Below, one piece after another: positions 7,941-59,900 of a stretch of DNA of 64,000 nt. A model generated the notes under the pieces. It was not told the origin of the DNA. It saw only the letters and a list, made by a program, of their open reading frames with translations, and did no database searches. A program made the translations under genes and the position numbers. The stretch's first letter is position 1. Each line of letters starts with the position of its first letter. The DNA is taken from the NCBI GenBank assembly GCA_033065855.1, contig JAVXUO010000979.1, forward strand, positions 32,816 through 96,815. The letters are read 5' to 3'. This DNA is from Escallonia rubra (lineage: Eukaryota > Streptophyta > Magnoliopsida > Escalloniales > Escalloniaceae).

Positions 7941-8711
7941 GGCTAGGTTTGACAAAAATTTTTTGCTTTTTTTTTCAGTTTTTAAAAACTGAAAAAAAGG
8001 AGAGTTTGGTTACCATTTTTTTTCAGTTTAAAAACCAGTTTTTAAACTGAAGAGTAAAAAAAAACCTCAAGAAACTTGTTTTTTTTTTCTCTTTTGATTT
8101 TTTGTTCACAGACCACAACCACCCCCCTCCAATCGCCGGCAGCCACCTCAGGCGACCACCGTCGGCCGTCGGCGACCACCGCCGGAGACTGCCAGCAGCC
8201 ACCTCCGGCCGCCGGCGACCACCTCTGGCCGCCTGCTACCACCTCCGGCCGCCGGTGACCACCGGCAGCCACCTCCGGCCGCCGGCGACCCCTCCGGCCG
8301 CCGGCCACCACCCCGGCCGCCGCCGACCACCCCCGGCCGCCGGAGACTGCCGGCAGCCACCGGCCGCCGACGACCACTGCCGAAGACTGCCGGCTGCCAC
8401 CTCCGGCCGCCGGCGACTGCCGGCAGCCACCTCCGGCAGCCGACGACCACCGCCGGCGACTGCCGGCAGCCACCTCCGGCCACCACCACCAACACCGGCC
8501 ACCACCACTACACCCCACAACCGCCACCGCAAACCACCAAAAAAAAAAAAGTCAAAATAAAAAGGGTTACCAAACACCAAAAAAAAAAACCTAAAAAAAA
8601 AAAGGGTTATCAAACACCCACTTGTTTTTATAAAAAAAAAAATTAAGCTGCTCTTTAAAAAACTGCTCTTTAAAAATTGAAAACCAAATTTTTTTTTTGT
8701 CAAACGAACCC
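7941..8711 (-). mobile_element. Tourist-like (PIF/Harbinger) element A with GC-rich core, 771 bp
   Basis: The ends are inverted repeats (right end on the minus strand GGGTTCGTTTGACAAA; left end GGCTAGGTTTGACAAA) flanked by TTA on each side (7938-7940, 8712-8714). A 3-bp TTA duplication and GGG-starting inverted repeats are typical of PIF/Harbinger Tourist elements. Long poly-A/T arms enclose a core at about 8130-8490 made of imperfect copies of a roughly 30-bp CCGGC-rich unit. The long ORFs through this core are low-complexity by-products, not proteins. No transposase is encoded, so the element would need one supplied in trans. Confidence 0.75.
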
Positions 8712-9038
8712 TTAATATTTATTTTTTTGTTTTCAGTGACTTTTATTTAGTAACGATAAAAAAAATTATTAAGAATTGTCGTTGAAAGTGTTAGCAGAAA
8801 AATCACCTGAAACATTTATAGACTATTAATTGTCACCATATACTAGGTTGAAGGAAGATTCCTACAACCCTGGTAGCAGCCAAAGTTTGTTCATTCCCTC
8901 CCAGTTTTTAAAGAAAAAAAATCTGGTTCCATTTTTTCCTCTAACATTTCTCTCTTTTGTGATCTAAAATATTCTTGCCATGTGGGTTTTATTTCCATTT
9001 TGGATATCATAGATTTGATGAGTGTCAATATTGATTTA

Positions 9039-9223
9039 GGGGCCGTTTGACATGCTTTTTATTTTCTCTTTTTTTTTCAGTTTTAAAATTTGAAAAAACA
9101 ACCTTGGTTTAAAAATTGGTTTTTTAAGCTGAAGAAAAAAAAAAAGGAAAACGGCTACCAAACGCATTTATTTTTTCCAGTTTCCAAAACTGCAAAAAAA
9201 AGCCCTGTCATACGGACTAGTTC
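9039..9223. mobile_element. Short Tourist-like element C, 185 bp
   Basis: It starts GGGGCCGTTTGACATG after TTA and ends before TTA; the right end on the minus strand contains TCCGTATGACAG. The inverted repeat is imperfect, with a few extra bases at the right end. It has the same poly-A/T arm style as elements A and B but no GC core. Confidence 0.45.
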
Positions 9224-9428
9224 TTAGACTCAATTTTTTTTCTTTTACATATTAACATCTTGAGATCTATTTCGCATTTTTTAAAACAGAGAGATATATG
9301 AGATTAATATTGAACAACCCATTTTTCTCAATATTTTGAAAGATAGCCAATTTTCTAATTGGTATAATTAAGTAGAAATACAAACTATTTAACAGGAAAA
9401 CAAAGGAGTATTCTTGAAGAGCATCTTA

Positions 9429-9992
9429 GGGTTCGTTTGACAAATTTTGTTTTTTTGGTTTTCAGTTTTTAAAGAACAGTTAAAATTTTTTTTTTATAAA
9501 AACAAGTGGGTGTTTGATAACCCCTTTTTTTTTGAATTTTTTTGTTGGTGTTTGGTAACTCTTTTTATTTTGACTTTTTTTTTGGTGGTTTGCGGTGGCG
9601 GTGGTGGTGGTGGTGGCCGGCGGCCGGAGGTGGCTACCGGTGGTCGCCGGCGGTGGCAGCCGGCAGTCTCCGGCGGCCGGAGGTCGCTGCCGGTAGTCTC
9701 TGATAGTGGTCGCCGGCGGCCGGAGGTGTTCGCCGGCGGCCAGAGGTGGCTGCCGGCAGTCTCCGGCAATGGTCGCCTGAGGTGGCTGCCAGCGGTGGGA
9801 GGGTGGTGGTGGTGGTCTAAGAAAAAAAAACCAAAAGTGAAAAAAAAAACCAGTTTCTGGAGTTTTTTTTTTTAATCTTCAGTTTAAAAACTGGTTTTTA
9901 TATTTGAAAAAAAATGGTTACCAAATACTCCTTTTTTTTTCAGTTTTTAAAAACTGAAAAAAAAGAGCAAATTTTTTTTGTCAAACTGGCCC
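9429..9992 (+). mobile_element. Tourist-like (PIF/Harbinger) element B with GC-rich core, 564 bp
   Basis: The left end GGGTTCGTTTGACAAA and the inverted right end are flanked by TTA on both sides (9426-9428, 9993-9995). It is the same family as element A in the opposite orientation: arms and order agree, and the core at about 9595-9800 is a shorter array of GGCCGGAGGTGGC-type units. The size difference from A lies mostly in the number of core units. Confidence 0.78.
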
Positions 9993-17345: not shown

Positions 17346-18079
17346 ATGTAAGGGGTAACTTACCAGTTGAAGGCAAACTATGGCATCTGTGGCCTTGACT
17401 AAGGCCCAATTTCGGTCCCACGAAACTTGGGATCTAGCATCTGTTTGTTGCTGATGGTGTCTTTCTTCACCTTAAGGCTTGTGATTATGAGCTGATCGGG
17501 ACGACTGTTAAAAGACCGCCAAACATGGTCTCTAAGTATCATAAAGTGGTCGCTTAATCAAAATAGCAGCAACATATAGTTGTGGCAAAAAAGGTGGCTA
17601 TAGCCCGGCTTGTTAATTTTGGTGCTTAGCAAAGAAAAGGTTGTCACTAGTATTAGCCATCGCTTTGACTAATATCGACCGATTCAAAATTTTAATCAGA
17701 ATAGGTGAAAAAAAATAATTAATTCAGCGATTGCCATCTTTGACCATTATCATATGCTGTCGCAATAGACCAGTGAGTTTAATTGCCACGTGACCGCGGG
17801 ATAAAGCAATCATACCCCATGGTTGGTTCAACATTATTCTATGGGTTCCAGGGGGTCAATCCCATGTGAATCTATATTCTCCCACGACAAAGTGGAGTTA
17901 GCACTTCGGATGACCATTTTTTCTTCCTTCGTCTATTTGTGCTGCAGCATCTTCCCTCATGATTGTTTCATATATATATATATATATTTCATGAATTGAT
18001 GTGAAAGTAACGTAACCCATTTTTTTTTTGGCACTCTTGCAGCCTTGTATAGACTGACCTCTTGACTTTTTTTTTTTTT
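17346..18079. other. Intergenic, nothing recognised
   Basis: No gene or classifiable repeat beyond a short TA run near 17970-17990 and a poly-T tract just before the Mutator-like element. Confidence 0.5.
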
Positions 18080-18365
18080 GGTTAATTACACACGGCATTG
18101 AGGTTTACCCTATTACACGGACTTATATTTTGAAAATTACACTCCGCTCCATTTCTTTGACGGTGTTAACGGTGGCACACAAAAAGACATTTTTACCCTC
18201 GTATATTAACTACACAAGACTGAGAATATTTCTAATACATTTTTGCCGACGGTTTGCCCGCCACCTCTCACTCTCTCCGCCATCTGTTTCTTCCCCTTCC
18301 CCCTGAAAACTCATGCTTTACACACACACACACAAATCGATACCATCGATACTTACTGAACTTCA

Positions 18366-18615
18366 GTGGCAACCAACGCGTGCACGTTCAGCAAGAATCC
18401 GCTCCAAATCCAACCAGCCTTCCAATCACCGACGATTTTCGGTGCTTCACTTGGCGGTTGTAGGAGTCCGTTGAAGCTAGGGTGCGGAGGTAGCCGGAGG
18501 AGGCGTGTTTCGCGGTGCAATCTGTGCCCAAGGGGGGCGCCACGGAGGAGTCCGACAGCATGCTTGTATACGCGCCCACGCCGTCCAATCGTGATCTTCG
18601 TACTCCTCACAGCGG
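18366..18615 (+). pseudogene. VTE1: Captured exon 1 fragment of tocopherol cyclase
   Basis: VTE1 encodes the plastid tocopherol cyclase of vitamin E synthesis. The fragment begins at an ATG with a Ser/Arg-rich, transit-peptide-like leader (MATNACTFSKNPLQIQ...). In a shifted frame it then reads SMLVYAPTPSNRDLRTPHSG, which matches the start of the mature VTE1 region (Arabidopsis has VYVPTSPNRELRTPHSG). It stops at AGCGG followed by GTAATT, which fits the donor of VTE1 intron 1, after HSG. One frame change separates the leader from the conserved part, so no intact N-terminus is encoded. The rest of the gene is absent. Position inside the MULE inverted repeats shows capture by the transposon, not a native gene. 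Recognition of VTE1 is from memory of the family sequence. Confidence 0.75.
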
Positions 18616-19320
18616 GTAATTCGAGTTGTTTCTGTTAGTTTTTATTTATAGCTGTGTTTAGTGTTTGATTCAGTAGTTAGTTTGGCACGCATTATCAATT
18701 TTGGCATGTATGCGCACGAGTTCTGATGGGGCTGAGAAATAGAAGGAAGAAAAAAAACTTATGTCTTATTTTTATTGCTTGTTGTGGCTGCTGGGAAGGA
18801 AGAAAAAATTTTGTGTCCTGTTTTCTGGGTATTTTATTTGTTTGATTGGCGACGAGGTGGCGGTCGACGGGGAGGAGATGGCCGGCTGGGAGGAGGCGGC
18901 GGCGAAAGAGTAGGAGGTGTCATTGCTGCCAGTAGTTGGAATCAAAGAGAGAGAGAGAGAACTGGGGTCTGATTTGTTCTAATCAAATTTTGTAGAGAGA
19001 GAGTTGGGTCTAATTCGCCGCCGGTATCTTGATCAAATTTTGTTCTGATTTGCAGCTTGCATGAAACTTATATCTAGCCTTTCTTCTCTCTTGCTTGCTT
19101 GATGAGTTCTTTGTTATAGATCCTTGACATTTTTTGGTTAGAAGAGAAAGAATGAAGGGAAGGAAGAAAGGGAGGAACAAGGAGAAAGAAAAGGGAGGAA
19201 CAAGGAGAAAGGTCTGTAAGGGGGAAAGAGAAAGAAGAAGAAGAAGAAAAACCCTAAAGGGCAAAATGGGGGTTTTACTCAAGAAAGGGAGGGCAGTTTG
19301 TGGATGAAAAATCCAAAAAG
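18616..19320 (+). other. Interior of the Pack-MULE after the captured exon
   Basis: The first 100-150 bases look like the beginning of the captured intron. Then follow a GGCGGCGG-rich stretch (18850-18910), a GA run (18945-18960) and a purine-rich stretch (19140-19250). This second part may be captured from another gene's 5' region, but I cannot name a source. Confidence 0.4.
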
Positions 19321-19499
19321 TAAAGTGTCAGGGAATCTTTAGACAGAGTTAGGGTCCCCGTCAATTTTGTAGGGCTCCGTGAAATGCGGGTACAAACCTG
19401 GGGGAACGGAGTATAATTTTCAAAAGATAAGGGGGTCCGTGTGTAATTTAGGGTAAACCTCAGGGGTGCCGTGAGTAATTAACCCATTTTTTTTGGTTG

Positions 19500-22400
19500 A
19501 GAAAAGTTAGGAATATATATCAGAATTTATTTTTGAGACTGGATATACAAAGAGTAAAGAAATTGTAAAAGACAGGAAATATGGATGGCATCCCCACCCA
19601 GGAGAGCTACCAGCCAAACAACTAACTACAAGAACGAAAGCACCACAAGGAAATTATCAAAGTGACATGCCAATCCTAGGAAGAGGCCGCACAAGCTGTA
19701 CATAATCAAACCATTCCTATTGAACTCTTTTACTAGATCGGATAACAAAAGCCGTCAAAGTTGATGAGAGGGATAAAGGACCAGCTTTTCCTTGAGCGAC
19801 GTGTGCCGAGTGCAATTCCTTATAGTTAGAAGTCAGTGAACACAGACAAGTGGTAGAAGATGGAGGCATCCTATTCCTATTGGGTATGGTCATCTACAAC
19901 ACGAAATCTCCATCAAAAAACAGCATAATGACATGTAAACAATTAGCTTAAGAACCCAAATGATGCTAGAACTTAGAGCTAACTCAAAAGCACTGATTTC
20001 ATCAGCAGAATTTAGAACATCGGTAAATGCACCAATCGAAACCCAATCATGATTGAATAGTATCATGCCCAGACCGTCTTTCCCGTCCACTGGAGAACCG
20101 ACAATCGAAATAGCACAGAAAATAGGAGAATATGGAATAGCACAACTACAACAATCTGAAAAGTAGATGGGATGAAGAGGAGGGTAGAAATGATCATGAC
20201 AATTGATTTGAACCTCCGAATGGTTATGTTCTTATGCTGAACTTTACTAAGGCGGCTATAAAAATAACGCATACGCTGAAAACTAGTCATCAAAACTTGG
20301 ATTTGAAAAATGATCAGTCGCAAATAAAAAAATTTATGTTTGAAGTCACCGCATTTCGACGAAGCCAGATTGACTACAGTATAGAAAAAATTCTCACCAC
20401 CCAGAGTAAAATTGTAAAGTGGCTGACTAACCAACCCCATAACCAAATTGTGGCTGAGTAGTTTGGCAAGTAAGACATCGGTTGTTTCCCGATGAAAATT
20501 TTCCAAATCAAACAAACCCAAGGGCATTCAAGAAAAAGATGTTCACGAGTCTCTGGTTAAGAAAAACAAAGAGGACATTATTCGTTAACAGGCAATGACG
20601 TTTAAGAAGTTTAGAAGAAAGAGGTAATCTATGATGGATGAATTGCTATAGAAATATTTTGAGTTTTTCTGGGATTAGAAGTTCCCAAAGTTTAAGCCAA
20701 AGAGCAGAAGTCATCTAGGGAGTGGGTTGAGGGGGGAAGAACTATCAATCAAGAATCTATAGATGGAAGCCACTGAGATGGAATTCCGCTTTACAAATGG
20801 CCAAAATCTCAAGTCCTCAGACCCATAAGGCAATAATTGGAGGCTCAAAATTTGGGAAATAATTTCCGCATGAAATGTGTGAAAAAGAACTCCGAAATCC
20901 CAACTATTAATATTATGGATAAACAAATTGGAGATAAGCCAAGTAGCATTCTCACTATTACGGAAGTTCTTTAACGTCGTAGCAGGGATATAAGGCATGC
21001 ACCAATCCATCCAAACTGAAATAGATCTTCCATCCCCTATATGCCATTGTAAGCCCTATTGAGAATATTCTGTCCTACCAAAATACTCCTCCATATCCAT
21101 GACCACGTTCGAGGTTGATTCTGCTGAAGAAACTGATTCCTATCAAAGTATCTCTCTTTAAGTACCCGAGCAACAAGACTTTGAGGGTTATACCAAATTT
21201 TCCAGGCCTGTTTGGTATCGTACCCCCTTTTGTTCTTTTCTGAACACAATCCATAAGTTCTTGAGCAATTAAAACATTATCTGAAAGGCAACGCCCCGGA
21301 ACAAAAGCATTTTGAAAAGGTAAAATCAAATCGCACATAACCAGTTTTAATCTGCTCACGAGCACGTTGGAGATGATTTTATACACAACATTACACAAGC
21401 TAATTGGACGGAAGTCCACTGCCGATTTAGGAAAGTTAACCTTTGGGATGAAAGAAATGAAGGTGCAATTCACCTCCCGAAGCAACTTACCAGAATTGAG
21501 AAATGAAAGGACGACAGTAATAACTAACCGTCCCATAAACCCCCCAACAATGCTTGGATTTCTTTTACAAATTTACTTCAATTGATTCATGTCTTTCTCA
21601 ATTGAAAGATTTCTTTTACACGTTTACTTCAGTAAATGTTGTGGCTTTCTCGATTTCGGGCTTTATTAACTAATGTGTACTCCATATCTTCATATAAAAA
21701 AATAATTTTACACAATTTGATCTTTTTTCAATAAGTATGTTCCTTAAATTAATTTTTGGAATTATTTTAAAATTTGGAGCAGTTCCCGAATAATTCTTCA
21801 CAAAATGAAAGAAAGTTTACATCAATTATTATAATCTTAAAAGCCAAATCCCTTAGAGAAGGCAACCTGTAACTGGGAGGCTACGAATAACTAGCGAAAA
21901 GCTTTAATCTAAGCTTCAAGATGCCAAAAACTATCCGAACTCCGAACTCGTAAGGCCCCCAAGACTTTATAGAGTTTATGCATTAATTGAAATAAGGGCG
22001 AACTGGCCACCGCTAAAGACCATACTCCTTTGATTAAAGGGAGGCATTGAGGGACCGAAAGCCACATGGCGTCAAAGGAATGAGAAAAATGATGAAAACT
22101 ACGAGCCGATTCGGTAACACGCTAAATAGAAGCATGATCTGATATCTAAATTGCTAAATTCTTGGCTATCGTGTTAGCGTGAAGACCAATCAAAGAAATG
22201 AAAGCCATAACTCGATCCAATTTCTCATAGATAAATCCATGTGATGGAGACTCTCGAACCCAAGTAAATAAAGGACCACCCAACTAATATCAGACAGGCC
22301 AAACGATTCAAGAAAATCGCGAAAGACTAAAATTCCTGGGGGAACAATCAATTTACAATTGGATTTTTCCGAGGAATCTAAAATCTAATTGAAGTCATCG

Positions 22401-22639: not shown

Positions 22640-23380
22640 CGTTAGAGTCACTATGGGCTCTAAGTGACGCCATTCGAGTTGACTAATGACCCCTCGACTT
22701 TTATGAATAACATAAATCATGTATTTAAACAATATTTGGATCAGTTCATCATTGTTTTCATTGACGACATCTTAGTGCACTCTAAGTCAGAAAAGGGGCG
22801 TGTTGAGCACCTAAATGTTATCCTACAAACTTTGAAGGATGATCAGTTGTATTCTAAGTTCAAGAAATGCGAGGTTTGGTTAGAGAAATTCATATTTCTA
22901 GAACATATGGTGTCTGAGGATCGAATAGCTTTTGACCTCTATATGATTGTTGTGGTGACCGATAGGCAGAGCACTGTTATAGAAGTGTGAAGGTTTTTTT
23001 TTTTCCTAGATAAATGGGTTAGTACCGTTGAGTTTTAAGAGGTTTCCGAGAATAGTTGTGCCTTTGACTCATTTTACTAGGAAGAACACTCGATTTGTTT
23101 GGAATGAGAAGTGTGAGGCCAGTTTTCAAGTTGGTGTTTGCACCTGTTTTGACCTTACCATCTGGTTCTGGAGGTTTTGTAATATGTAGTGATGCCTCAA
23201 AGAAAGACTTAGGTCGTGTTTCAATGCAGTGTTATTCGTATGTTCTGAAAATCTCAAACCTTATGAACAAAATTACCCTACCTCATAAGGGTTTTTTTAT
23301 TTCTGACAACTGTTATTGTGCTCAGTTCTTTGGTATGGTGCTCTGGATATATGAGTTTTGAGGGGGATGGTGATGTATAT
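22640..23380 (+). mobile_element. Ty3/gypsy retrotransposon fossil (RT and RNase H region)
   Basis: The plus strand shows the RT signature of Ty3/gypsy elements (FIDDILVHSKS) and, further on, an RNase H start (SDASKKDLG). LTRs, gag and integrase are not visible nearby. It is broken in several places and is clearly old. It abuts the LINE on its left. Confidence 0.8.
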
Positions 23381-26878: not shown

Positions 26879-29631
26879 TGTCGACGTCAAGAAAGTGAGT
26901 TTGCAGTAGACGTGGAGGTATTACAAAAAACACAGTTTAAGTCAGATGTCAAGCACGCTGATGTAAGACAGAGTAAAAAAATGAATAAAGACAGAGACCA
27001 AGGATTCCTAGACGGAGGCCCAGGAGTGACAGTGCTGCGAGAGCGAAGGCGCATAGTGAATATACGATCATAGTTACAGTTCAATGCTTAGGCCCAGAGT
27101 CAAGGTCCAGTGTCGGACGTCAGGGTCCTGTATGTTTTTCTCTCTAGAATTCTCTAGCTCTGAAATTATAGAGTGAGAAAGTGAAAATGAGTTATGTTCT
27201 CTTGAAAATGAATTCTCAAGTCCCATATTTATAGGGGTTGAGATGGTCATGTCATCAAGCGACTCGTGGCGCTCCTTGGGAGTGACAGTTCGCTAAGGGG
27301 GCCATAGATGTCAATGCTCCAAGGGCGGATCCAGGAAGTCTAATCGAGGAGGGCCAAAAAGTCATGAAAATAATTGATGGCTAGAGTAAAAGGGAATGAG
27401 AAGGTTAACTCTTACTGTATAATGAACAACAAATTACTAATCTTGTATGAAAGAAACTTAACGCATACTGTATAGATGTACTACAAACGTAATCATTAAT
27501 TATCTGAGTATAATAGTCATGTATAAGTTAACATATATAAGAATTTAAACTAAAAAAAGGAGGGAGGGAGAGAGAGAACTAACCTTGATCTATTTGTTTT
27601 TTTAATTTGGAGAGATTTAAAATTAGAAATTTAGAACAATGAAGATGGAGCAAGAGAACGAGAAAGACAAAGCTCATGATGACATGTGGTATAAAGAGTA
27701 AAAAACATAACAAAATGAAATCCTAATAAATTTCTTTATACAATATAATAATATTTTTGTAAATATTTTAGATATAATTACCTATCATCATTTAAATAGT
27801 TAACAAGAATTTTTTCAAAAGTTGGGGGGTGTCGTGGCACTCTCGGCTCATGCGGCAGTTCCGTCCCTGCAATGCTCCATGGACTGCTGGTTGGCATTTT
27901 ACGCAGCCTGCCCCGCATAGCTTCTCTATGTCTATCCGAAAAGACTGGCTCATACAGCACATGTGTGGCCAAAGAACCCCTTGATCTAGCCATCAATCCA
28001 AAGCTCTTCCTGATTCCCACAGAGGCATCCAGAGACGCGGATGACCTGGCAGCTATGTTGGAATGCCCGACATCCAACTTCTAGGTGAACGAGGCGCAAT
28101 ACCCTCAGAAGGCTCCCATCCCATAGTGACCCGGGGGTTATAGTCCTTAGGGGTGCCGATGAAAAGCTACCAATGACAGAGCACATAGACTAGTCACTCA
28201 AACACCCAGGTTGGGATAGTGTCTGAAGGGGTCACCTATCCTGCTGGCGAGTCCTTAAGCTAGAGCACTCAGAGCACGCCAAGGTAGTATCCCTAAAAAT
28301 TCGCCTACTTGACACGCCGAGGTAGTGTCCCAGAGGTGTCGCCCGCCCGACGAGGGCTGAGGTAGTGTCCAAAAAGAGTAACCTACCTGACACACCGATT
28401 AAGTGCCTCCGAGGAGTTGCCTACCCGAAGGGCAGAACTAGTGTCCCCAAGGACTCGTCTACCTTGCGTGAGGGGAGACTCTATGCTAGAGCATTTAAAG
28501 CTCCCTGATAGAGATAGTTTCCTGGAGAGTCACCTATCCCATGACGAGTCATTATGCCAGAGCAATCGGAGCGCGCCAAGGTAGTGTCCTAAAGGAGTCG
28601 CCTACCTGACGAGAGGGGAGTCTTCATGCCAAAGCACTTGGAGCTCCCTGACGGAGACAATGTTCCAGAAGAGTCGCTTATCCCCGTAACGAGTCCTTGT
28701 ATCGGAGCACTTGGAGCACACTAAGGTAGTGCATTGGAGGAGTCGCCTACCCGGTATGCTGATGTAGTTTTTCGAATGAGTTGCTCTAATGGTAATAGAT
28801 GAGTCCTCATGTCGGAGCACTTGGAGATTCTTGAAGTAGTGTCCTGAAAGAGTCGCCTACCTTGAGGGATGTTGCACACTCCAAAGAATGGGTTGAAGCA
28901 TGTTAACACGACCAAGTGAAGTTGCACATGGTGTGATGAAGGAATATACGAATGTCGAGTGCATGGAAGTGTGGCAGTACCGGGTGGGCACGACCTTATA
29001 AGTGACGTGACGCATGGGCATGGCGGGATATGTTTGATGCCAAAGGCACAACCAACGGATACGATACTCGTGCGAGGTAACGGGTGTCGTAGAGATAGAC
29101 ATCATGTTGGGGGCACATGCACGGGGACGGCGCTTGGATGCAGACGGGTGTCGTAGCGTAAAAGGGTTGGTGTCGCTGCCATGGAGCATAAAGCTCCCAA
29201 AAGAAGGAAAAAACTAGGGGTGAGGCAAGGGTGCCTTCAAGGAGAGGGAGGCCCCAATGGGTGAAGCAAGTGAGCCCCCAAAGGGTGAGGCAAAAGCCGC
29301 CAAGGGTTGATGCAAGGAAGCTTCCAAGGGGTGGGGAAAGGAGTCCCCAAGGAGTATAGCAAGAGAGCCTTGAAAGGGTTATGTGTGACCCCTTAGTCAA
29401 GGGGCCGCCATCGATTCCAACCCTTGAATTTTTTTTAGAGGGCGAGGCACGCGATGTCAATTCCAACACTTAGAATACTTTTGTTTCATAGATGCGGCAT
29501 GTGATTTGAGCGTGCTCCTTGGAACGACCGGTTAGGTAGTGTTGAAATTTGATCGTTGAACATTTATTGACGTGTCGCGAATGTGGGACTCAAGAGCGGT
29601 CAAAGGTACGTACCAGGATAGGCTAGCAACA
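26879..29631 (-). mobile_element. Long LTR-like segment, left copy (with a hAT-like insertion)
   Basis: Read on the minus strand it starts TGTTGCTAGCCTATCC and ends ACGTCGACA. It follows the same order as the plus-strand segment at 30618-33711: a GTTCAACG-type start, CCAAGGGG-type short repeats, degenerate minisatellite-like units, a series of GCTCCxxxTGCTCxGGCA units (28860-28100), a CCTATAAAT TATA box (about 27230), then GAGAATTCTAGAGAG and GCAGCACTGTCACTCCT. It is shorter than the right copy and more diverged. No matching target duplication was found. It is probably a solo LTR of the same non-coding-end family; a broken, old fossil. Confidence 0.65.
27320..27869. mobile_element. hAT-like non-autonomous element, 550 bp
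   Basis: The ends are CAAGGGCGGATCC and, inverted, CAGGGACGGAAC. CAATGCTC is duplicated on both sides (27312-27319, 27870-27877). An 8-bp duplication and CAGGG-type ends fit the hAT superfamily. The interior is AT-rich with no transposase. It sits inside the left LTR-like segment and therefore inserted after it. A relative begins at 38489. Confidence 0.75.
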
Positions 29632-30617
29632 ATGTGTATATTCAAGTGTACAAACGGTGGATACAATGCTATTTTTCCAGAGGACTAAGAGTAGCCTTTA
29701 AATACACTGTGTGGGGAGCAATGGTGCTACTGTGTTGGAGAAGATATGCGTGATGGAGAACCTATACATCATTGACATTAGCAGACTAAATATGGAGAAT
29801 TCCTACTCTCAAGTTTGCCTTTGATCTTCAAATACTTGTCATAGTCGGCTTAATTTACATCGAGGCTTGAGATCTCGAATTACAACATGCTATGCTAGCC
29901 CACATTGACTAGACATGGACATCATTTCTGATTCTTATACTTGGTAGACTTTGCCGTCTCCTAAACATACTTTTGAGTTGGACACCAAACTTTTCTGCTT
30001 TTTTATTAAGGTGACTGCCATCATCGTTATAATATGCCTTGTTTTCCTTCTATACGAAAATTTTTGTCTCAACACGCAAAGGGGGACATAGATGGTCGGG
30101 CCTAGGAAAAAGCGTGTTGGGCTGATTTGAGTGGTTTGAATGGTAAGAGAATCCATTTACATGGATCTGCTTTTGGGCAAAAATACAACTAGGCCAAGGT
30201 GCAAAGTCACATATTCTTAGTTTCCTAGAGCAACAAATTGGGTTGTGACGCAAAAGAAACAAACTATTACTATTAACACGAGAGCTAAATTAGAAGCTAG
30301 GTGACATAATCCATTATCTTTTTTTTCTTAGAATTATTATAAATATAACCATCAGAAAATAAATGAGGCTAACATCCTTAGCCTCTGGGATTCGATATAC
30401 AATGCTAATAACGGATGACAACCCCATTCGATAAGTTGTACCTAAAAAGAAAAGAGAAATAAACAACAAAATTAAAGCAGACAAAAGATAAAGAACTACT
30501 ACTTTGTTTGTTTGTCTTTTTGTTTGTTTATTATTATTATTTTTTAATATTTTTAAAGGAGATACAATAAACAAACAAAACCTACAAAAAATAAACTTAC
30601 AAATAGACAGAAACCTA
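29632..30617. other. Spacer between the two inverted LTR-like segments
   Basis: About 1 kb of AT-rich sequence without a gene. It includes a TTTG/TTATTATT-rich low-complexity stretch near 30500-30550. The last five bases, ACCTA, are the left target duplication of the solo LTR. Confidence 0.5.
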
Positions 30618-31566
30618 TGTTCCCAACTTATCCTAGTCGGACCTAGGGGCCCATTAGGGGTCCCGCTTCTCGCGAACACGTCGACACATTCAACGGTCAA
30701 TTTTTCAACGCATTGAATCGTTCAAAGTGCGAGCGCCCAAGTCACGTGTATTTTTCACTTCGCATGCTTTGTGCGCGACTTAGGCGCCAATTATTTCACG
30801 TTAACGTGACTCTCGGTAGCATGATCGTCTCGCCGCGACCACCCGAGCACCTTTTCATCAAAAATATCGACCGACGGCACAACCGGAGCGACGGGGTCAA
30901 GGGGCAAAGGCCTTGGCCAACCCCATGGGGTCGGCCTCGGCTTCCCCCAAGCCCATGGGGTTAGCCTCGGCCTCCATGGGGGTTGGCCTTGGCCTTCCCC
31001 CCCGGTTGTTCACCTTTCATGCAAAGTCCTTTTTGAGCTTTGTTCGCTTCGTACGATTTGTATATGACTTTGGCACCTTGTTCGTCACATGGGTACGACT
31101 CACGGCAACACGCACGTTATAACGCAACTTTCGGATTCGTCATTGCCCATCAAAACATGTACCGTCGGCACGCCCAAAGTTCACCGGAAGGGGGAGTGGC
31201 CTTGGCCTCCCTTCGTGGGAGTTGGCCACCCCCTAGGGTTGGCCTCGGCCTCCCATGGGCTTTGGCCTTGGCCTTCCCCCCATTTTGGCCTTTGGTCTCT
31301 CTTCCTGCGCGCACTTGTTTTCTCGAGTCTTTGCACCTCTGCGATGTTTACGGACGATCATACATCAATCTCGAGACGTCCGTAATCCGTCACCCGCGAC
31401 CGCGCACCACTCCCGTGATGCCTGTCACCCAAAGTCGCGCGCTACCGCCGAATGACCCGTCGCCGACGACCGCATACCATCACTCCCAACTTTGTCATTA
31501 CTACATATTGCATTAATTATTTTGTTATAACAGGCACACTCAACTCCCGTCCTGTCTCCAGGACAC

Positions 31567-32510
31567 CCGACGCGTGCCTGTGAGCCGTCTCCGTGACGAT
31601 CGTCGTCGTACCCGTGCGCCACTTTCATAACATGTGCCCCCGGCACCAAGTATTGTCTCGCGACGTTCGTCGCCGTACCCGTGCGCCACTTTCATAACAT
31701 GTGCCCCCGACACCAAGTATTGTCTCGTGACGTTCGTCGCCACGCCCGTGCGCCACCTCCATCATACGTGCCCCGGCACCGAGTATTGTCTCGCGACGTT
31801 CGTCGCCGCGCCCGTGCGCCACCTCCATCATACGTGCCCCGGCACCAGGTATTGTCTCCGCGACAATCGTTGCCGCGCCCGTGCGCTACTTTCATCACAT
31901 GTGCCCCCGGCACCAAGTATTGTCTCTACGACGATCGTCGCTGCGCCCGTGCGCCACTTTCATAACATTTGCCCCCGGCACCAAGTATTGTCTCGCGACG
32001 TTCATCGCAGCGCCTGTGCGCCACCTCCATCATACGTGCCCGGCAATAGGTATTGTCTCCGTGAATGTCGTCGCTGTGGCCATGCGCCACTTTCATCACA
32101 AGTGCCCTCGGCACCAAGTATTATTTCGCGATGTTCGTCGCCGCGCCTGTGCCCCACTTTCATAACATGTGCACCCGGCACCAAGTATTGTCTCGCGAGG
32201 TTCGTCGCCCCGCCCATGCGCCACTTCTATGATATGTGCCCCCAGCACCAAGTATTGTCTCGCGACGTTCGTTGCCACACCCGTGCGCCACTTCCATGAT
32301 ATGTGCCCCCGTCACCAGGTATTGTCTCGCGACGTTCGTCGCCATGCCCGTGCGCCAGTTTTGATAACATGTGCCTCGGGCACCAACTATTGTCTTGTGA
32401 CGTTTTGTCGCCGCGCCCGTGCACACTTTCCATGACATGTGCCCCCGGGCACCAGGTATTGTCTCGTAACGGTAGTTGTCGCGTCCATGCGCCATAATCA
32501 TGTTACGGGC
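31567..32510 (+). repeat. 67-bp minisatellite, about 14 copies
   Basis: Units begin CCCCCGGCACCAAGTATTGT and contain CTCGCGACGTTCGTCGCC and GTGCGCCACTTTCAT. Thirteen complete units and a partial first unit can be counted, 66-68 bp each. Because 67 is not a multiple of three, the long overlapping ORFs on both strands are artefacts. The array lies in the U3 part of the solo LTR. Confidence 0.92.
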
Positions 32511-32597
32511 GTCTAGGCATCACACTCATTCACCACATCATGTGCCCACGCCATGGACGTGGAACATGCTTCGACCCACTCTCCGGAGTGTGCAACA

Positions 32598-32930
32598 TTC
32601 CGAGGGGCTCCGCTCATAGTGCTGCGGCACGAGGACCTTCCGCAGCGGGATGGGCTCGTTACCACAAAGCCATCGCCACCACGGGATAGGCTCGTTACCA
32701 TAAAGCTATCATCGTCTTCATTCCGGGGGGCTCCGCTTGTAGTGCTCCGGTACGAGGACCCTCCGCAGCGAGATGGGCTCGTTACCACAAAGCCATCGCC
32801 GCCACGGGATAGGCTTGTTACCATAAAACTATCGCCGTCTTCATTCCGGGGGGCTACACTTGTAGTGGTCCGGCACGAGGACCCTTCGCAGTGGGATAGG
32901 CTCATTACCACAAAGCTATCGCCGCCTGGG
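32598..32930 (+). repeat. 123-bp tandem repeat, about 2.7 copies
   Basis: Units starting at about 32598, 32721 and 32844 share TTCCGGGGGGCTCCGCTTGT and GGGATAGGCTCGTTACCA. Each unit itself contains two related halves. Related, more degenerate units occupy 28100-28860 in the left LTR-like segment. Confidence 0.88.
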
Positions 32931-33716
32931 GTGACTTGCGTGACACTAGGCACTGAGCTGCGACCATGTCCGCTCATGTTACCGGTAATCATCGGCACCC
33001 CCATGACGATGACCCTCCGGTCACTCCGGGACTGGAACAGGTCTTTGGAAGGCATAGCTCCTAGTCCGCTTGGCAGTTCGCTATAGGGGTAACCCTCACC
33101 GCTGTCAGGTTATCTACGTGTCTCTTGACGCACGTTGTGGGATTCCGTAAGGGCTTGGACCGGTGGCTGGGGAAACATGCTGACTCTGATCATGCTGTCA
33201 TGGTGTGTTCAGTCTTCTCAGATAGGTAGAGTGACGCTGTGTGGGGCAGGTAGCACGAATTTGGGAACCGGCAATCCAATGGAGAACCGGTATTTTGGGA
33301 CCCCCTGGTGACGTGTCACTCCTAGGGGACGACATGTGGTACTTTATGACACAGGCACACTGTTTCCTATAAATAGTGGACTTTATGACTCAAAAAAGGA
33401 CTTTTGCTCATTTCTCACAAAATCATTTTCTCACTCTAGAATTTGAGAGCTCTTGGATTCTAGAGAGAGAAACACAAATTGGACGTAACATTGGACCGTA
33501 GCATTGGACCCTGACTCAGACCTTGACTTGGACTGTCGACTGCCGGCCTTGTCTCCGCAGCACTGTCACTCCTCACGGCCTGTCTAGGAAGCCTTGCTCT
33601 ATGCCTTTACTCTGCCCTCACTGTCTCTCACTTTGCATACTTGAAAGCTGACCTGGACTGCAGCCTTTGTGGCACCTCCACGTAGGTACGAACCCAATTT
33701 CCTTGGCATCAACCTA

Positions 33717-39101: not shown

Positions 39102-40813
39102 TCAAATCTTGCCATGGGGATCCCGGTGCTCCAACCTTATAACCCCCACCACCGCCCCCTCGTCATCCACCCGCCCAACATCATTGAAGTTCTGGCCGGC
39201 ATCCTGATCTGCCTTCCTCAGAGTGTCCGCAATGGCTCCGGCCGGCGTCTCCTCCACGTCCAGCTCCTCCACCATCACCTCCCCCGCGGGGTCCTCTCGC
39301 GCTCGCCGCGTCTCGTTCACCACATCCGTCGGCATGCCCAGCTTCTCCTTGATGGCGTCCTTCACGCTCCCGATTGAGCCAAAGATGTTACTCTTCCCAG
39401 CTTCACCCCTATCCAGTAGAAGGAAATAAGACTACAAGATCCAAATAAAAGGAAAATCTAAGACATGTCCATGAGCAAAATGTGTAGCACCAACCTATCA
39501 GCTGCTGTTTCCCTGTCTGCCTCGGCCCTCGTCCTGTCTTTATCTTCATTACCTTCTTCCCTCAGCTTGATTTCCTCCATTTTCCTTCTTGCTGCCTCCT
39601 CAGTTTCATTATACTTCTCCTAATGTATAAGCAATAAGTTGCTAAATTAGTAACAACAATGGTTGAATAAACAACACAACCAAAAATTAAGGCAATAAAG
39701 CAAAAAATGCGTCACCTTCGCTGCTTCAGTTGTCTCAGCTGCCTTGTCCTTCGTCTCTTCCTTCTTGCCCGTCAAGAATTCCATGGCTTTCCTCGCCGCG
39801 TCAGCTGCCGTATCCTTCAAATCTGATATCTTTCCAACGGTGGTATCCTTGCTTTCCTTTGTTTTCTCAGCCGTGTAATCCTTATACTCTGCCGCTTTTT
39901 CCTTCGCCTGCTCGGCAGTCTCCTTCGCCTTGTCCTTGGTCTGCTCGGTAGTCGCCTCTGCCTTGTCCTTGGTCTGCTCGGCAGTCTCTTTTGCCTTGTC
40001 CTTGTATTCACCAGCTTTGTTCAGAGAAGTGTCCTTGGTCTCCTTCGCCTTCTCGGCCGCATAATCCTTGTACTCACCCGCTTTGTTCAGAGAAGTGTCC
40101 TTGGTCTCCTTCGCCTTCTCGGCCGCATAATCCTTGTACTCACCCGCTTTGTTCAGAGCAGTGTCTTTCGTCTCCCTCGCCTTCTCTGCCGCCTCTTTTG
40201 CCTTCTCTGCTGTGTAATCTTTGTATTCCCCAACTTTATTCAGCGTAGTGTCCTTTGTCTCATTGGCCTTCTCTGCCGCGTAATCCTTGTACTCACCCAC
40301 CTTCCCCAACGTCGAATCCTTGGTCTCCTTAGCCTTCTCCGCAGCAGAATCTTTGGTCTCCTTCGCCTTCTGCGCTGCTGTATCCTTGTACTCTCTGGCC
40401 CTCTCTGTAGCAGAATCCTTGGTCTCCTTTGCCTTTTCCGCCGTGTAATCCTTGTACTCCTCGGCTCTCTCTGCGGCAGAACCCCTGCTCTCCCTCTCCC
40501 CCTCTGCTGCCTCATCCCTGCTCTCTCTCTCCCTCTCCACCGGTTCATCCCTGCTCCCCCAAGTCCTCTCCGTGGACTCATTGCTCCTGCCGGTTACAGC
40601 TTCTTTAACGGTCTTCAGTATGCTCCCAATAACACCTGGCCTATCTTCTTCCTCATCTCCTCGGTGGTACTCTCGTGGCTCATCGTACTTTGTCCTGTTA
40701 GCCTCTTCTTCCTCCCGAGCTCTTCTGTCTCTGTTCACATCGTGGAGCTCCGAGGCCGCCACCTTGGCAGCTGCCTCAGCTCTGTCTTCCTTCTCAGCTC
40801 GCGTCGACGCCAT
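39102..40813 (-). CDS. Late embryogenesis abundant protein (LEA group 3/LEA_4 type), 3 exons, 509 aa
   Basis: This is a desiccation-protective, highly hydrophilic protein expected to be disordered in solution and to fold into amphipathic helices on drying. Exons (minus): 40813-39716, 39619-39495, 39408-39102, phases consistent, 510 codons with stop. The start ATG opens MASTRAEKEDRAEAAAK. Residues about 120-350 are a long series of 11-residue units of the type TAEKAKETKDS and KAGEYKDYAAE, which is the group 3 LEA hallmark. The C-terminal exon (SVKDAIKEKLGMPTDVVNE... RLEHRDPHGKI) is family-typical. Length resembles large seed LEA proteins such as ECP63-like members. There is no signal peptide or membrane segment. 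Upstream ABRE-type motifs fit ABA and seed-maturation control. Part of the repeat array has very recently duplicated at DNA level. Confidence 0.93.
40020..40152 (-). repeat. 66-bp in-frame tandem repeat within the LEA coding region
   Basis: A 66-base unit coding for 22 residues (two 11-mers, containing LNKAGEYKDYAAEKAKETKD) is present twice with practically no nucleotide difference, followed by more diverged copies. It keeps the reading frame and shows how the array grows. Confidence 0.9.
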
Positions 40814-40940
40814 TTCTCTTCTTCTCACACTCAAAATCACTCCCTACACTCAAAACAATTTTCCTCCTCTTTGCTTTATGAACTGATAATCAAATGTAAA
40901 GTTTGCAAGACAGTGTTGGGTTAGATTTCAATCCGTGGAG

Positions 40941-44803: not shown

Positions 44804-47770
44804 TCAAGACTCACTGGTTCCATTGACTCTAGTGTTGAACCTTCTAAGCCAGATTGAGTAAAGTATCATGTGGAAAACATCATATGATTTTGGGGGAGAA
44901 TTCACTTCAAAGTGCCTCCTCACTTGGACACCCCTCTTCTGCATCCTTACATATTCCCTTTCAGAAATTCCCATCAAGATCTCCTTCAATTTTGGAATCT
45001 CCTCCACAGAAATTTCAACTGAGAACGACCTCCAACTTAAAACGTCGCTAAATGGTTTCACGTAATGCTCTTTAATCAAAACCGGAACGCATCCCATGTA
45101 AAGTGCCTCGACCATCCTTGGGCTTGCTACTTCAAACCCACTAGCGCAAATGCAGTACTTGCTCTTTCTGATCATCCCATAATAAGAGACCCCTTTCGGA
45201 AGGTATTGGTGAACCTGCACATCTTTGTCCTTATTCTCCCAATGCTTGAAAAGTACTGGCCTGATGGAACCATGAAGTCCTCCAGCAAAGAAAACCAAGA
45301 TTGAACGTTCAGAAGAGGGTGCACCGCCTATCATTCCATCTGTTTTATCAAATGGGAGATAGATTTCTGGGATGGACACATCTTTGGACGGATTGAAGCC
45401 TTCTGAAGTGTTTGCATTACATAGTACTTGAATAGAATTTTTGTGTAGGTCAGGAATTGTAAAGGAAATTTCAGGACCCTACAACAAAATAGTAAAATGG
45501 CTTGGTTACAAGTTTATAGTTGACTATTCCGACAATATTCCTTCTCGAAATCCTAAGAAGTTCCCATATTGAAACTCGGGAACGTAAATGAACTTCAGAC
45601 TTATTGCCGATACTAAGTAGCAGCCAAAAAAATTGTTTTCGTATATGTTTTCTCGATTTGAGATTGCATCTTAACAGTTGGGAGGCACCTCTTTAGCAAA
45701 AGTTCAGCAATGGTTTCTCACCTTGTCATGGCAGGCTAGCATGAAGTGATCACCTCCACGGCTTCGATTCCAGTAGGGGTATTTTGCAGCAACAAGACTG
45801 ACATAGTCTAGGGCTATTCTTTTCATGGGACCCCAAACATAGGAATCAGTCTCATTCACAACTTCGTTAATCATTGTCACACTGAAGGGAAGAAAATAAA
45901 CATGAGCTATGTTTGGATCTTTAGTCCGAAAATGGCTAACCTCTATGTTCTGTATAAAATGTCCCTCTATCGCATATATGTCCATCATGGGGCCATAATG
46001 GAAAATTGGGGGTTCTCCTTCTTCATAGACGAATACTTTGAAGACTTCTTCCATTTCCATGTAGCTCCTAATTTCATGGTCCAAAGTTAGACAACGAATG
46101 GGAGAGGGGAAAGGGAAACATTGAAATTACAACTTAATTGTGTTGTGGTGGCTTACATTAGATTGAACTTTTACCTTTAATAGAAGAAAATCTTTAGTGT
46201 AACGGTGATAGATATGACGTAGTATAACGGACCACTAGATATGACGAGATAGAGGGATTTCCCAAGAATAAGGGGTAAATTTTTTGCTATTCTTACGTCA
46301 TTGTTATCACCGTTGCATTGGAGTTCTTTTTGTTCTAAAGGATTATTTGGATTCATCGATATAAGGTGGTAATTCGTTTTTACCCGCATTTGACTAGTCA
46401 TCTAAGTACATTTGACTGAGTAATTGATAACACTTCAAAAGTATCTAAAAGGTCACAATTCACTGAGAGTTCATTCAACTTCTCATCTTTCTTTTATAGC
46501 TTAATTATATATTATGCAATTGTGAGATCTTAAGAGATCTAGTGTTGTAAAGTTGTTTAACTTATCAAAGTACAACAATCTAACCTCTTTCTTAAATCTT
46601 TATTGCAGAAATATTATTGCCAAAAGACCATCTTTCTGTAACATATCTGCAGTATTCGAAACTTGGAAATTCATGATATTTCCTAGTTCAAGTAGACGTC
46701 TTTGGTTTATGATCATGATCAAATAATAATTTTCATATTTCGAAAGCATACATTAGAAGCAACCATGAAAAGAACTGTGTCATTTGTGTCCCTGAATTGT
46801 TATTACCTGTGGAAGGCACCAGCGTTCCAATACGTTGGACCTCTGGGGATGTACTTGGCGTTCTTGCTCTTTCTCTTCTCACACTAGCAGAGTCATAGAA
46901 ACAAGATGAGTCTCATTCATGGTAATATTCAATGTTTCTACTTTCTCAACCCTGTTAAAGTGGTAACTGAGTAACCGGACAGTAGTGAAGTTAATGGCAT
47001 ATGGTGGTGGAGAGGCAAATGTTGCTTTAATTGTCCATTAATGAGTCAATTGAAACGACCAAGTCTATCAATCTAAGTCTTCTTATCCCACAAAGAGAGA
47101 TATATCTTTGTAACAAGAGATGTTTTTGAATTAAAGCTAAGCACCGAGATCCTGCGAGGTTGCTGGTGACCAGATGTTACTCTTGGCGATGTAAATTTTG
47201 GTCAGAAAAAAGACTTCCTAATCAAGACGTGATCCTTCTCCTGGTGTTAAATTAAGCTTTTAGCCTTTGCGACGAATTTAGGCGCAATCAAGAGTGGAGA
47301 AAACTTTATTATGATCGTGAAAGTTTCTATTTTTCCAGCAACTAGATTTCGAAAGGTTATGTTTATAACTCTAACATGCACACTGAATTTCACCAAGGCA
47401 ACTTTTTCGGAATAGGGGCCATGTATCAAGGATTCAAGGTGCATAGGGTAACATGTAAACTCATTATCTATTGACGCGAATGGAAATTAGCTCAACTTAT
47501 CAAACTAAGAGAGCATTTACCTGAAGTGGAAACAACAAAAAAGTGTACTCATTCATCCATTTAACATTTGCGTGGCGTGTGCGTGTGCTTGCGTGTGTAA
47601 AAAATTGGCCTTACTGGCAGTTCAGACGTGCACATCCATAGGGGGGTCTTTGAACCTAGCCAAGATATGATCCCACACACCACAAACAAAGGTAAAATGA
47701 TGCACAGGAGCTTCGAGGACCCGAGATGTGATGACCTCCAGGTTAGCAGCCATTTTCTGAAGTACCTCAT
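44804..47770 (-). pseudogene. GT47 exostosin-like glycosyltransferase, first copy, 5' half damaged
   Basis: This is a tandem paralogue of the gene at 56959-60044. Recognisable exons: 47770-47615 (MRYFRKWLLTWRSS then a membrane anchor), about 46952-46808, 46067-45722 and 45478-44804. The last two have exactly the lengths of their paralogues (346 and 675 nt) and are fully open, with FFAGGLHGSIRPVLFKHW and KSKYCICASGFEVASPRMVE. Exon 2 is about 103 nt shorter than in the paralogue (145 against 248): the LDRLEAGLGRARAAI segment is missing and the frame is lost. The conserved DWGPE motif is DKGPE here. Exon 1 is also much shorter than in the intact copy. The simplest reading is a recent pseudogene. 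An alternative is a transcript starting downstream that makes a soluble catalytic fragment. Confidence 0.7.
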
Positions 47771-56958: not shown

Positions 56959-59900
56959 TCATGATTCGTCAACACCGTGAACACGAATGTTGAGTCTTCT
57001 AAGCCAAACCGAATGAAGTATCATGTGGAACACATCATATCGCTTGGGAGGCAAATTGACCTCAAAATGCCTCCGAACTTGTTGACCCCTCCTCTGCAAT
57101 CGAATGTACTGTCTCGATGATATTCGCGTTAGTATATTTTTCATGTTTGGGATATCCTTCACAGGAATTTCAACAGAGAAGGACTTCCAGTTAAGAACAT
57201 CGCTGAAAGGAGGCACGTAGTGGTCCTTTATGAGTACAGGAACACAACCAGTGTAGAGTGCCTCGACCATTCGAGGGCTTGCGACTTCATAGCCACTTGG
57301 ACAAATGCAGTATTTGCTCTTCCTCAACATGTCGTAGTACGAGACACCTTTCGGGAGGTATTTGTGAACCTGGACTTCGTCATCCTTGTTCTCCCAGTGC
57401 TCTAAAAGTATTGGCCTAATCGGGCCATGAAGGCCTCCAGCGAAGAAAACCAAAATGGGGCGATGCGATGGGGATGGCCCGCCGAGCAAGCCTTTCATTG
57501 TACCACCTGGGAGAAGAATTTCTGGAAAGGATACATCTTTGGAGGGCTTGAATCCTTCAGAGGTATTCGCGTTACATAGGGCTCGAATCGAGTTTTTGTA
57601 TAGGTCAGGAACCGCGCCTGACAGCTCAGGCCCCTGGAATGCACAATGACTGCAGAACTTAAACATTGCTGGACATGGCGTTAACAACGGGGATAAATTG
57701 CAAGGGAAAATAGAATCACTATCACTTCTTCAACCAAGTGAAAAATTAACTAACAGGAAAATAGTGAACACGTTATACAGAAAGAAGGCCAAATTTTGGT
57801 GTCCAAGTGTTGAGGTTTTAATATCCTTAATCTGTATACTCTATGTAGTACATAGCATTTTGTGTACATAGACGGTATATAGGAGGTATATTTAGGGTAG
57901 ACTTTCGTAGTTTTAGGAATAATTAATATTTAAAAAAAATCATGAAAAAAAAAGCAGTATCTCGATCTCCCCACATATTTCATCTCTTTATTAATCACTT
58001 AATTTGAACAAATCAGAGGAAAACGCCTGCCTTTCCGCCTATGGTCATGAACAAAGAAATCTATATCCAATTAAGTTCTATAGCAATTCTCTCTTATAAA
58101 TTAATCATGCCAAGGAAAAGGGGAGGTTCCGTCCTAATAGGCAATTTTAAGGGCATTATGTTGGATTCTCACCAAATGAATTTTTAAGGTAGTCTTACTG
58201 TTCACAGAACAAGGCGATAATCGACATGTTTCCAAGATAAGAACCAATTCAAGCAAGAACAACGACGATAAGTTAAACCAAACTTGACCATGTGGACAGT
58301 TTGTTGTTATTAGCTAATTTTGGAGGTAGTGCAACAATTCCTTACCCAATCATGGCAAGCAAGCATGAAATGATCAGCTCCAAGGCTTCGGTTCCAGTAA
58401 GAGTACTTTCCTGCGAGAAGATTGACATAGTCTTTGACTGTCTTCTTCATTGGATGCCAATCATGGGACTCACGCTCGTAAACAAAGTGAACGATTGCCG
58501 TCACACTAATTGGAAGAAAGTACACATGCGCTTTGTCTGGATCTCTAGTACGGAACTTGGTGGTCTCCATATGGTAAATAAAATTTCCCTCCATAGCGTA
58601 TATGCTCTTGCAGGGACCATTATGAAAAACCGGGGGTTCTCCTTCTTCATAAACAAACACCTTGAACTGTTTTTCCATTTCTAAGTAGCTCCTACAATTG
58701 ACAAGAGGAGCGCGAGGTTTAGAAATATACACTCCAAGAATATGTCAGATGTTTTCTAAACCACCATGAGAATGGTACCAATTTCATAATTGCACCGAGT
58801 CGCTACGTTCGCACCAATTAATCTAAAAAAATTAGACGACGCCAATTTTCCTAGAAAAGAATACAACACATAATGACCGTGAGAGTGTACTTACCTGTGG
58901 AAGACACTTGGATTCCAATACATAGGACCTGTTGGAACGTAATCGGAATCATTTAGACGATGCCCATTTTTAGCGTCTCTAATTGCGGCTCGAGCTCGCC
59001 CAAGACCGGCTTCAAGCCTGTCCAAACTTGTGTACTCTTTCCGAATCTTCACGTCGATGGGAAAGTCATGTGACTGATTCAAAGAAGGAATAATGTGGGT
59101 TTCATCTGCGGTGATATTCAAGCTCTCTTCCTTATTTGTAACCTGTGGAATTAGTTTGAGACATTGTCTATCAGCTATACATGTATTGGCCCAACAGCTA
59201 CTTTCTTGTTCTTAGACAAAGACTTTCATGTTTTATGGACAGATGACGTTGGGAAAGGCCAAAATAGGACATTCTTGAACCCAATTTGTTTCTCCTTTTT
59301 ATTACTCCTCTCCAACTCTAAATATTTGACCCTTATAAGTATATATATGCTTCATTGTACCTATTAATAATGCGAGTTATGGAATGAAAGGCAAAATCTG
59401 TGGCTTTCTGATTCATAGAAATAATTGAAATAAAAAATAAGAACAACAAACCCAAGATTAAAATTTAAAACATAACACAAGCCCATACATAACCCACATA
59501 TCAAAAATGAAATTGAGCATGACTGTTCATTAAGAATGTTGTAAATCGTGCATCATGGTTGTAACCTAAAAGTTTACAAAATCGCATACCATTAATTAAA
59601 ATGCCAACTATATAGCATGATGTACAACACTCTGATGCAGGCCAGAGAACAAAGGCTTACTACATGAGGTGGAGTCTCTATGGCTTCTACAGCAAGCGGG
59701 GGCGCAGAAGAGCGGTTAACGATGTTGTCGGGCGACAGAGCTTCCTCCCTCCGGCCACCACCCACCACCCTTGGCAGCAAGTCCAACCTTTTCTCCGGCG
59801 GTGCAACAGGTCCCTCTGTAGCCGTAGAAGAAGACGAAAAAACACTACTCCTGCCACCGCCACTGAAACTCCATATCCTAGTGTAATAGCGAAAATCAAA

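Follow-up and report, generated by a model that had tools for sequence, protein, structure and literature searches.

A Pack-MULE carrying a decayed piece of the tocopherol cyclase gene VTE1 in Escallonia rubra

The stretch of DNA analyzed here, referred to as the window, comprises 64 kb of Escallonia rubra sequence. At 18080-19485 it contains a non-autonomous Mutator-like element (Pack-MULE). The 5' terminal inverted repeat lies at 18080..18150 on the plus strand and starts with GGTTAATTACACACGG, the 3' repeat lies at 19403..19485 on the minus strand, and GGGTTAATTACNCACGG represents the family end sequences of the element. The ends were delimited by alignment to each other. They measure 71 and 82 letters; their alignment has 66 equal letters out of 71 and 11 gap letters, and the local score of 83 compares with a best score of 25 among 500 shuffles. 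Thus, the long Mutator-type inverted repeats that an earlier note on this DNA had described are present. Filters for such repeats range from at least 50 bp in one published case to 100 bp in another, and 100-500 bp is called typical, according to PMC3310237; the 71-82 bp repeats of the window element fall below this typical range. Inward of these ends, the likeness of the arms was no better than in shuffles (91 and 66 of 300 were as good under two scorings), and no further copy of the ends was detected in the 64-kb window at E 1e-3. The candidate target-site duplication, with TTTTTTTTT at 18071..18079 on the left and ATTTTTTTT at 19486..19494 on the right, is a T-run of low complexity with one mismatch and hence not diagnostic. 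Two other structures with inverted arms were observed in the window. A large foldback element occupies 7941-9991; the similarity between its arms is about 80% over 393 columns, and each arm contains tandem repeats of the GC-rich CCGGCCGCC type. At 26880-33713, about 6 kb containing several tandem arrays is enclosed by long inverted arms that have decayed to 64% identity over 455 columns.

The element has no recognizable transposase of its own, as Pfam gave no match in eight reading frames and three peptides. Rfam had no match in the 64-kb window, and pattern scans of a viral collection returned zero and one matches. Other coding remnants of the window include reverse transcriptase fragments downstream of the Pack-MULE (21078-21536 and 22664-22987) and, on the minus strand, an LEA_4 reading frame with many in-frame repeats at 39647-40840 (eight stretches, E 1e-89). 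Two sets of exostosin GT47 pieces (Pfam PF03016) at 44804-46084 and 56959-58732, likewise on the minus strand, probably belong to two related genes.

The genome searched comprises 566 Mb in 3222 contigs. The earlier note had made its reading depend on inverted repeats shared with other elements of the genome, and these were found in many elements among the best 40 of 1933 candidates; all copy counts of the family are therefore lower bounds. At least 17 of these sisters (L085-L089, L091-L095, L097, L102-L106 and L110) have the 5' part of the window element up to about 18216 and also its 3' part, with a different cargo in between. The end of this cargo (31 residues) matches plant histone H2B tails in the PDB with E 5e-4, and we refer to these copies as H2B-type. 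Target-site duplications of the 9-11 bp expected for Mutator elements were found in them: among 11 of the 17 copies tested, eight were exact at 9 bp, one had one mismatch and two had two. L091 and L092 share the same insertion site and are possibly one locus counted twice. Based on the 9-bp duplications, the family was assigned to the Mutator superfamily.

Within the window element, all internal parts read on the plus strand. The 5' subterminal sequence spans 18151..18252. Junction alignment showed that sisters share it up to about 18216, and that 18217-18252 is equivalent to AGAATATTTCTAATA in L107 and L108, two sisters without VTE1. It is followed by captured VTE1 sequence, namely 5' flank and 5'UTR (18253..18365), exon 1 (18366..18615) and the start of intron 1 (18616..18808). 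The middle part of the element (18809..19121) includes 18846-18910 (GDEVAVDGEEMAGWEEAAAKE*), and the 3' subterminal region (19122..19402) is common to many other family members, with matches starting at query position 1043, and is also seen in L098 and L099.

The cargo, which the earlier note had assigned to VTE1, was recognized through the peptide VYAPTPSNRDLRTPHSG (18566-18616), the top match of the window to both the Arabidopsis and the rice VTE1 protein. The matches scored 32.7 and 33.9 bits, compared with 28.5 and 26.9 for the best of 200 dinucleotide shuffles. Pfam recognized the Arabidopsis query as tocopherol cyclase (PF14249, E 6e-144), with the domain beginning at residue 89, beyond the exon 1 part. 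The 20-residue cargo peptide had no match in Pfam or the PDB. Bacterial relatives were also consulted (80 of 267 retained, 79 of the 80 titled as cyanobacteria), and TPHSG occurs shortly upstream of the FFEGWY motif in 51 of the 80. A score matrix made from 42 of them, the other 38 being left out for want of HSG or of 17 residues, ranked 18566 first in the window with 16.2; one of 20 shuffles reached 15.7, which makes this result weak alone. GC content over 18366-18614 is 0.59 and exceeds that of 98% of the 249-bp stretches of the window. The leader contains no D or E among its 54 residues in the window frame.

The parent of the cargo is this genome's own VTE1 gene, located on contig C1626 (locus L090). 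Exon 1 of this gene starts with ATGGCGACCAACGCG at L090:2581, reads MATNACTFNKNPLQIRPAFQ...VYAPTPSNRDLRTPHSG and ends with LRTPHSG at a donor identical to that of the window, where GT stands at 18616-18617 in the register fitting the gene. Exon 2 starts with YHFDG at L090:3247. Joined, exons 1 and 2 match PF14249 with E 1e-22. Additional exon pieces were found beyond them in the correct order, so that residues 65-162 and 164-474 of the 488-residue query are covered; one piece found with the rice query overruns an exon end into a stop. Since the gene shows both features, the leader is the N-terminal region of VTE1 itself and the donor is VTE1's own, at the exon 1 position where it had been placed. 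When segment 18217-18680 was searched against the genome, four places were returned (all four candidates scored): the window, contigs C2897 and C1523, and the gene on C1626. Besides the two element copies, VTE1 is thus the sole match of the fragment.

The cargo had been described as exon 1. Exon 1 is indeed present, but the captured piece is larger, measuring about 0.55 kb with VTE1 upstream and 5'UTR sequence in front of the exon and roughly 190 bp of intron 1 after it. In the window copy the gene match spans L090:2469 to 3030. In the other two copies (L083, L084) it starts at 2430, and they retain about 36 more bases of the VTE1 5' flank. Alignment of the intron past 18615, which the earlier note had suggested, revealed that the match continues contiguously for about 190 bp, 193 bases in the window corresponding to about 180 in the gene. 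These observations bear on the idea that the element picked up a processed, RNA-derived VTE1 copy. Exon 1 alone is present, which leaves no exon-exon join as a test of this idea; against it, the gene match runs unbroken past the donor for some 180-190 bp and in two copies it begins about 150 bp ahead of the ATG, so that we regard a processed source as extremely improbable. On these grounds, either DNA or unspliced RNA served as the template.

Next to the gene, the cargo proved to be decayed. One frame change had been noted between the leader and the conserved part. The disruption of the frame is real, but the count is not: compared with the gene there are two one-base insertions, a 21-bp deletion and GTG instead of ATG. 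The VTE1 cargo is dead as a protein. The search for other elements with the same cargo yielded the copies on C2897 and C1523, and all four lesions are common to all three VTE1-type copies, with one additional 1-base loss in the C1523 copy. Since the lesions are shared, a single VTE1 capture followed by spread appears likeliest from the sequences. It is very improbable that a MULE happened to insert into a VTE1 duplicate or pseudogene. A related MULE does adjoin the real VTE1 gene, showing that MULEs and VTE1 meet, but the VTE1 piece recurs with identical internal order and lesions in three copies on three contigs, and no other VTE1 piece in the window was better than E 0.22.

Measured across the entire captured segment, distances to the VTE1 gene were 0.071 for the window copy (36/533 sites), 0.077 for the C2897 copy (39/536) and 0.114 for the C1523 copy (56/534), which is clearly the most distant of the three. 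The window copy differs from C2897 by 0.007 and from C1523 by 0.043. Over 268/269 exon bases, the window copy has 10 substitutions, four silent and six not; the C1523 exon has 22, six silent and 16 not. With these small numbers, the exon gives no apparent sign of constraint. Both of these other copies are truncated, C2897 by the initial 19 bases at its 5' end and C1523 by its 3' terminus. Because of these losses, and because the window duplication is a T-run, no VTE1-type copy has a diagnostic target-site duplication. A regulatory role, in which cargo transcripts or small RNAs would act on the VTE1 gene, seems quite unlikely to us. The cargo is still about 88% like the gene, and PMC4858842 reports mRNA and small-RNA evidence for internal sequences of Pack-MULEs, but three copies were found and the cargo has decayed.

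The intron part of the cargo links the VTE1-type elements to the H2B-type sisters. The stretch 18689-18808, contiguous with exon 1 in the VTE1 gene, is present whole or in part in all 17 H2B-type copies, one of which retains 62 of the 120 nt. Four of the 17 (L097, L102, L103 and L106) lack the middle part 18812-19060. Histone H2B cargo was also found in elements of another kind. Three of these were read (L120, L121 and L123) and contain no VTE1 sequence. L121 and L123, on C1387 and C1642, are Pack-MULEs with much of the histone H2B coding region. The H2B frame of L123 is open across the histone fold and on into element sequence (Pfam Histone E 6.5e-19; plant H2B in the PDB E 4e-62), and that of L121 is broken near its end. 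A genome search with the H2B cargo gave 212 candidates, and the best 40 all had E <1e-170. Replacement of VTE1 by H2B inside a VTE1 element had been considered and was dropped once the H2B elements without any VTE1 were found.

The simplest account of these arrangements would be a hybrid of H2B-carrying and VTE1-carrying Pack-MULEs formed by recombination or template switching, the VTE1 capture probably having preceded it. Judged from the junctions, recombination of the VTE1-type element with an H2B Pack-MULE, or a template switch to one, would have given an H2B 5' half joined to a VTE1 intron remnant. Trees of the shared parts left VTE1-type and H2B-type copies unseparated with weak support and neither favor nor exclude the hybrid account; as the trees are weak in this way, the order of events rests on the junctions. 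Hybrids now outnumber the VTE1 type, with at least 17 copies among the best 40 of 1933 candidates versus three.

An older layer of cargo was seen in L107 and L108 (C2459 and C314). These sisters share the family's 5' end and 3' part and some of its middle; of the H2B-type cargo they contain just the initial 27 nt. Their own, third cargo (MEARAKATVGLLEKIRPPRLED... in L108) can be read in L108 as MEARAKATVGLLEKIRPPRLEDAGLEDC..., a further reading being ...GDEVAVD, and had no Pfam match above the cut-off. Position 18846-18910 of the window seems, from this comparison, to be the end piece of a gene captured earlier, which is fuller in L107 and L108. The likely order is an element with the older cargo, then capture of VTE1, then hybrid formation with an H2B-carrying sister.

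We also inspected the surroundings of the parent gene. Another MULE of this family occupies L090:1090-2270, which places its end about 160 bp before the captured segment begins and about 310 bp short of the VTE1 ATG. It is flanked by TATTATTA-like sequence. This neighbor could have been the vehicle that captured the adjoining VTE1 exon directly, and its closeness speaks for that. However, its end nearest VTE1 faces outward, the opposite of what simple co-mobilization needs, its 5' part is only 74% like that of the window element, and the 20 kb surrounding the gene (L100, L101) yielded no other family end. The meeting may also be chance, as MULEs are reported in PMC4858842 to favor the 5' ends of genes. 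We consider a direct capture by this neighbor unlikely. Co-mobilization as in the Pack-TYPE model, which needs two neighboring elements (PMC8903248), misfits because the near end faces outward and no second family end lies within 20 kb. Gap repair or invasion of an ectopic sequence, the capture models cited in PMC4858842, would fit better. Capture may have been a DNA repair event in which synthesis switched templates and copied the VTE1 locus, possibly aided by the neighboring sister element, and Mutator transposase supplied in trans would have moved the element.

In summary, a Pack-MULE almost certainly took about 0.55 kb of the host VTE1 gene, most probably through a single event; the reading frame was lost, and the element is present today at three genomic places. 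The ends, the family with its 9-bp duplications, the parent gene, the common lesions and the number of places were observed directly. A wider reading holds that Pack-MULEs here exchange cargo by recombination, as in the VTE1 and H2B fusion with its hybrid at up to 17 places versus three, and that the sister at the VTE1 promoter contributed to the capture and continues to influence expression of the gene; taken as a whole, this is unlikely.

The Pack-MULEs of rice, reportedly described by Jiang et al. in 2004, are likewise non-autonomous Mutator-like elements with a GC-rich host gene fragment whose parent gene is still in the genome. They share the 9-bp duplications, seen here in sister copies of the family. 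In contrast to them, the ends here are shorter than typical and the cargo is VTE1 exon 1. Tomato PM-ZIBP, described in PMC3310237, is also a multi-copy family amplified after one gene-fragment capture with a known putative parent; unlike it, no tandem ends were noticed here and two cargos are joined in a hybrid subfamily. Pieces of more than one gene in one element are also known from Pack-TYPE elements, for which PMC8903248 proposes element fusion; the model given there needs two neighbors, whereas VTE1 has one, with its near end outward. In the open-access literature we found no Pack-MULE with tocopherol cyclase or histone H2B and no usable account of VTE1 exon structure, and the passages on vitamin E were unrelated. 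The kind of event is well known; within the literature searched, the novelty lies in the VTE1 cargo and the hybrid subfamily. The locus provides a traced case of gene-piece capture by a MULE, parent gene included. Such hybrids combine pieces of unrelated genes that never met. With a MULE near its promoter, this vitamin E gene is a candidate for effects on tocopherol.
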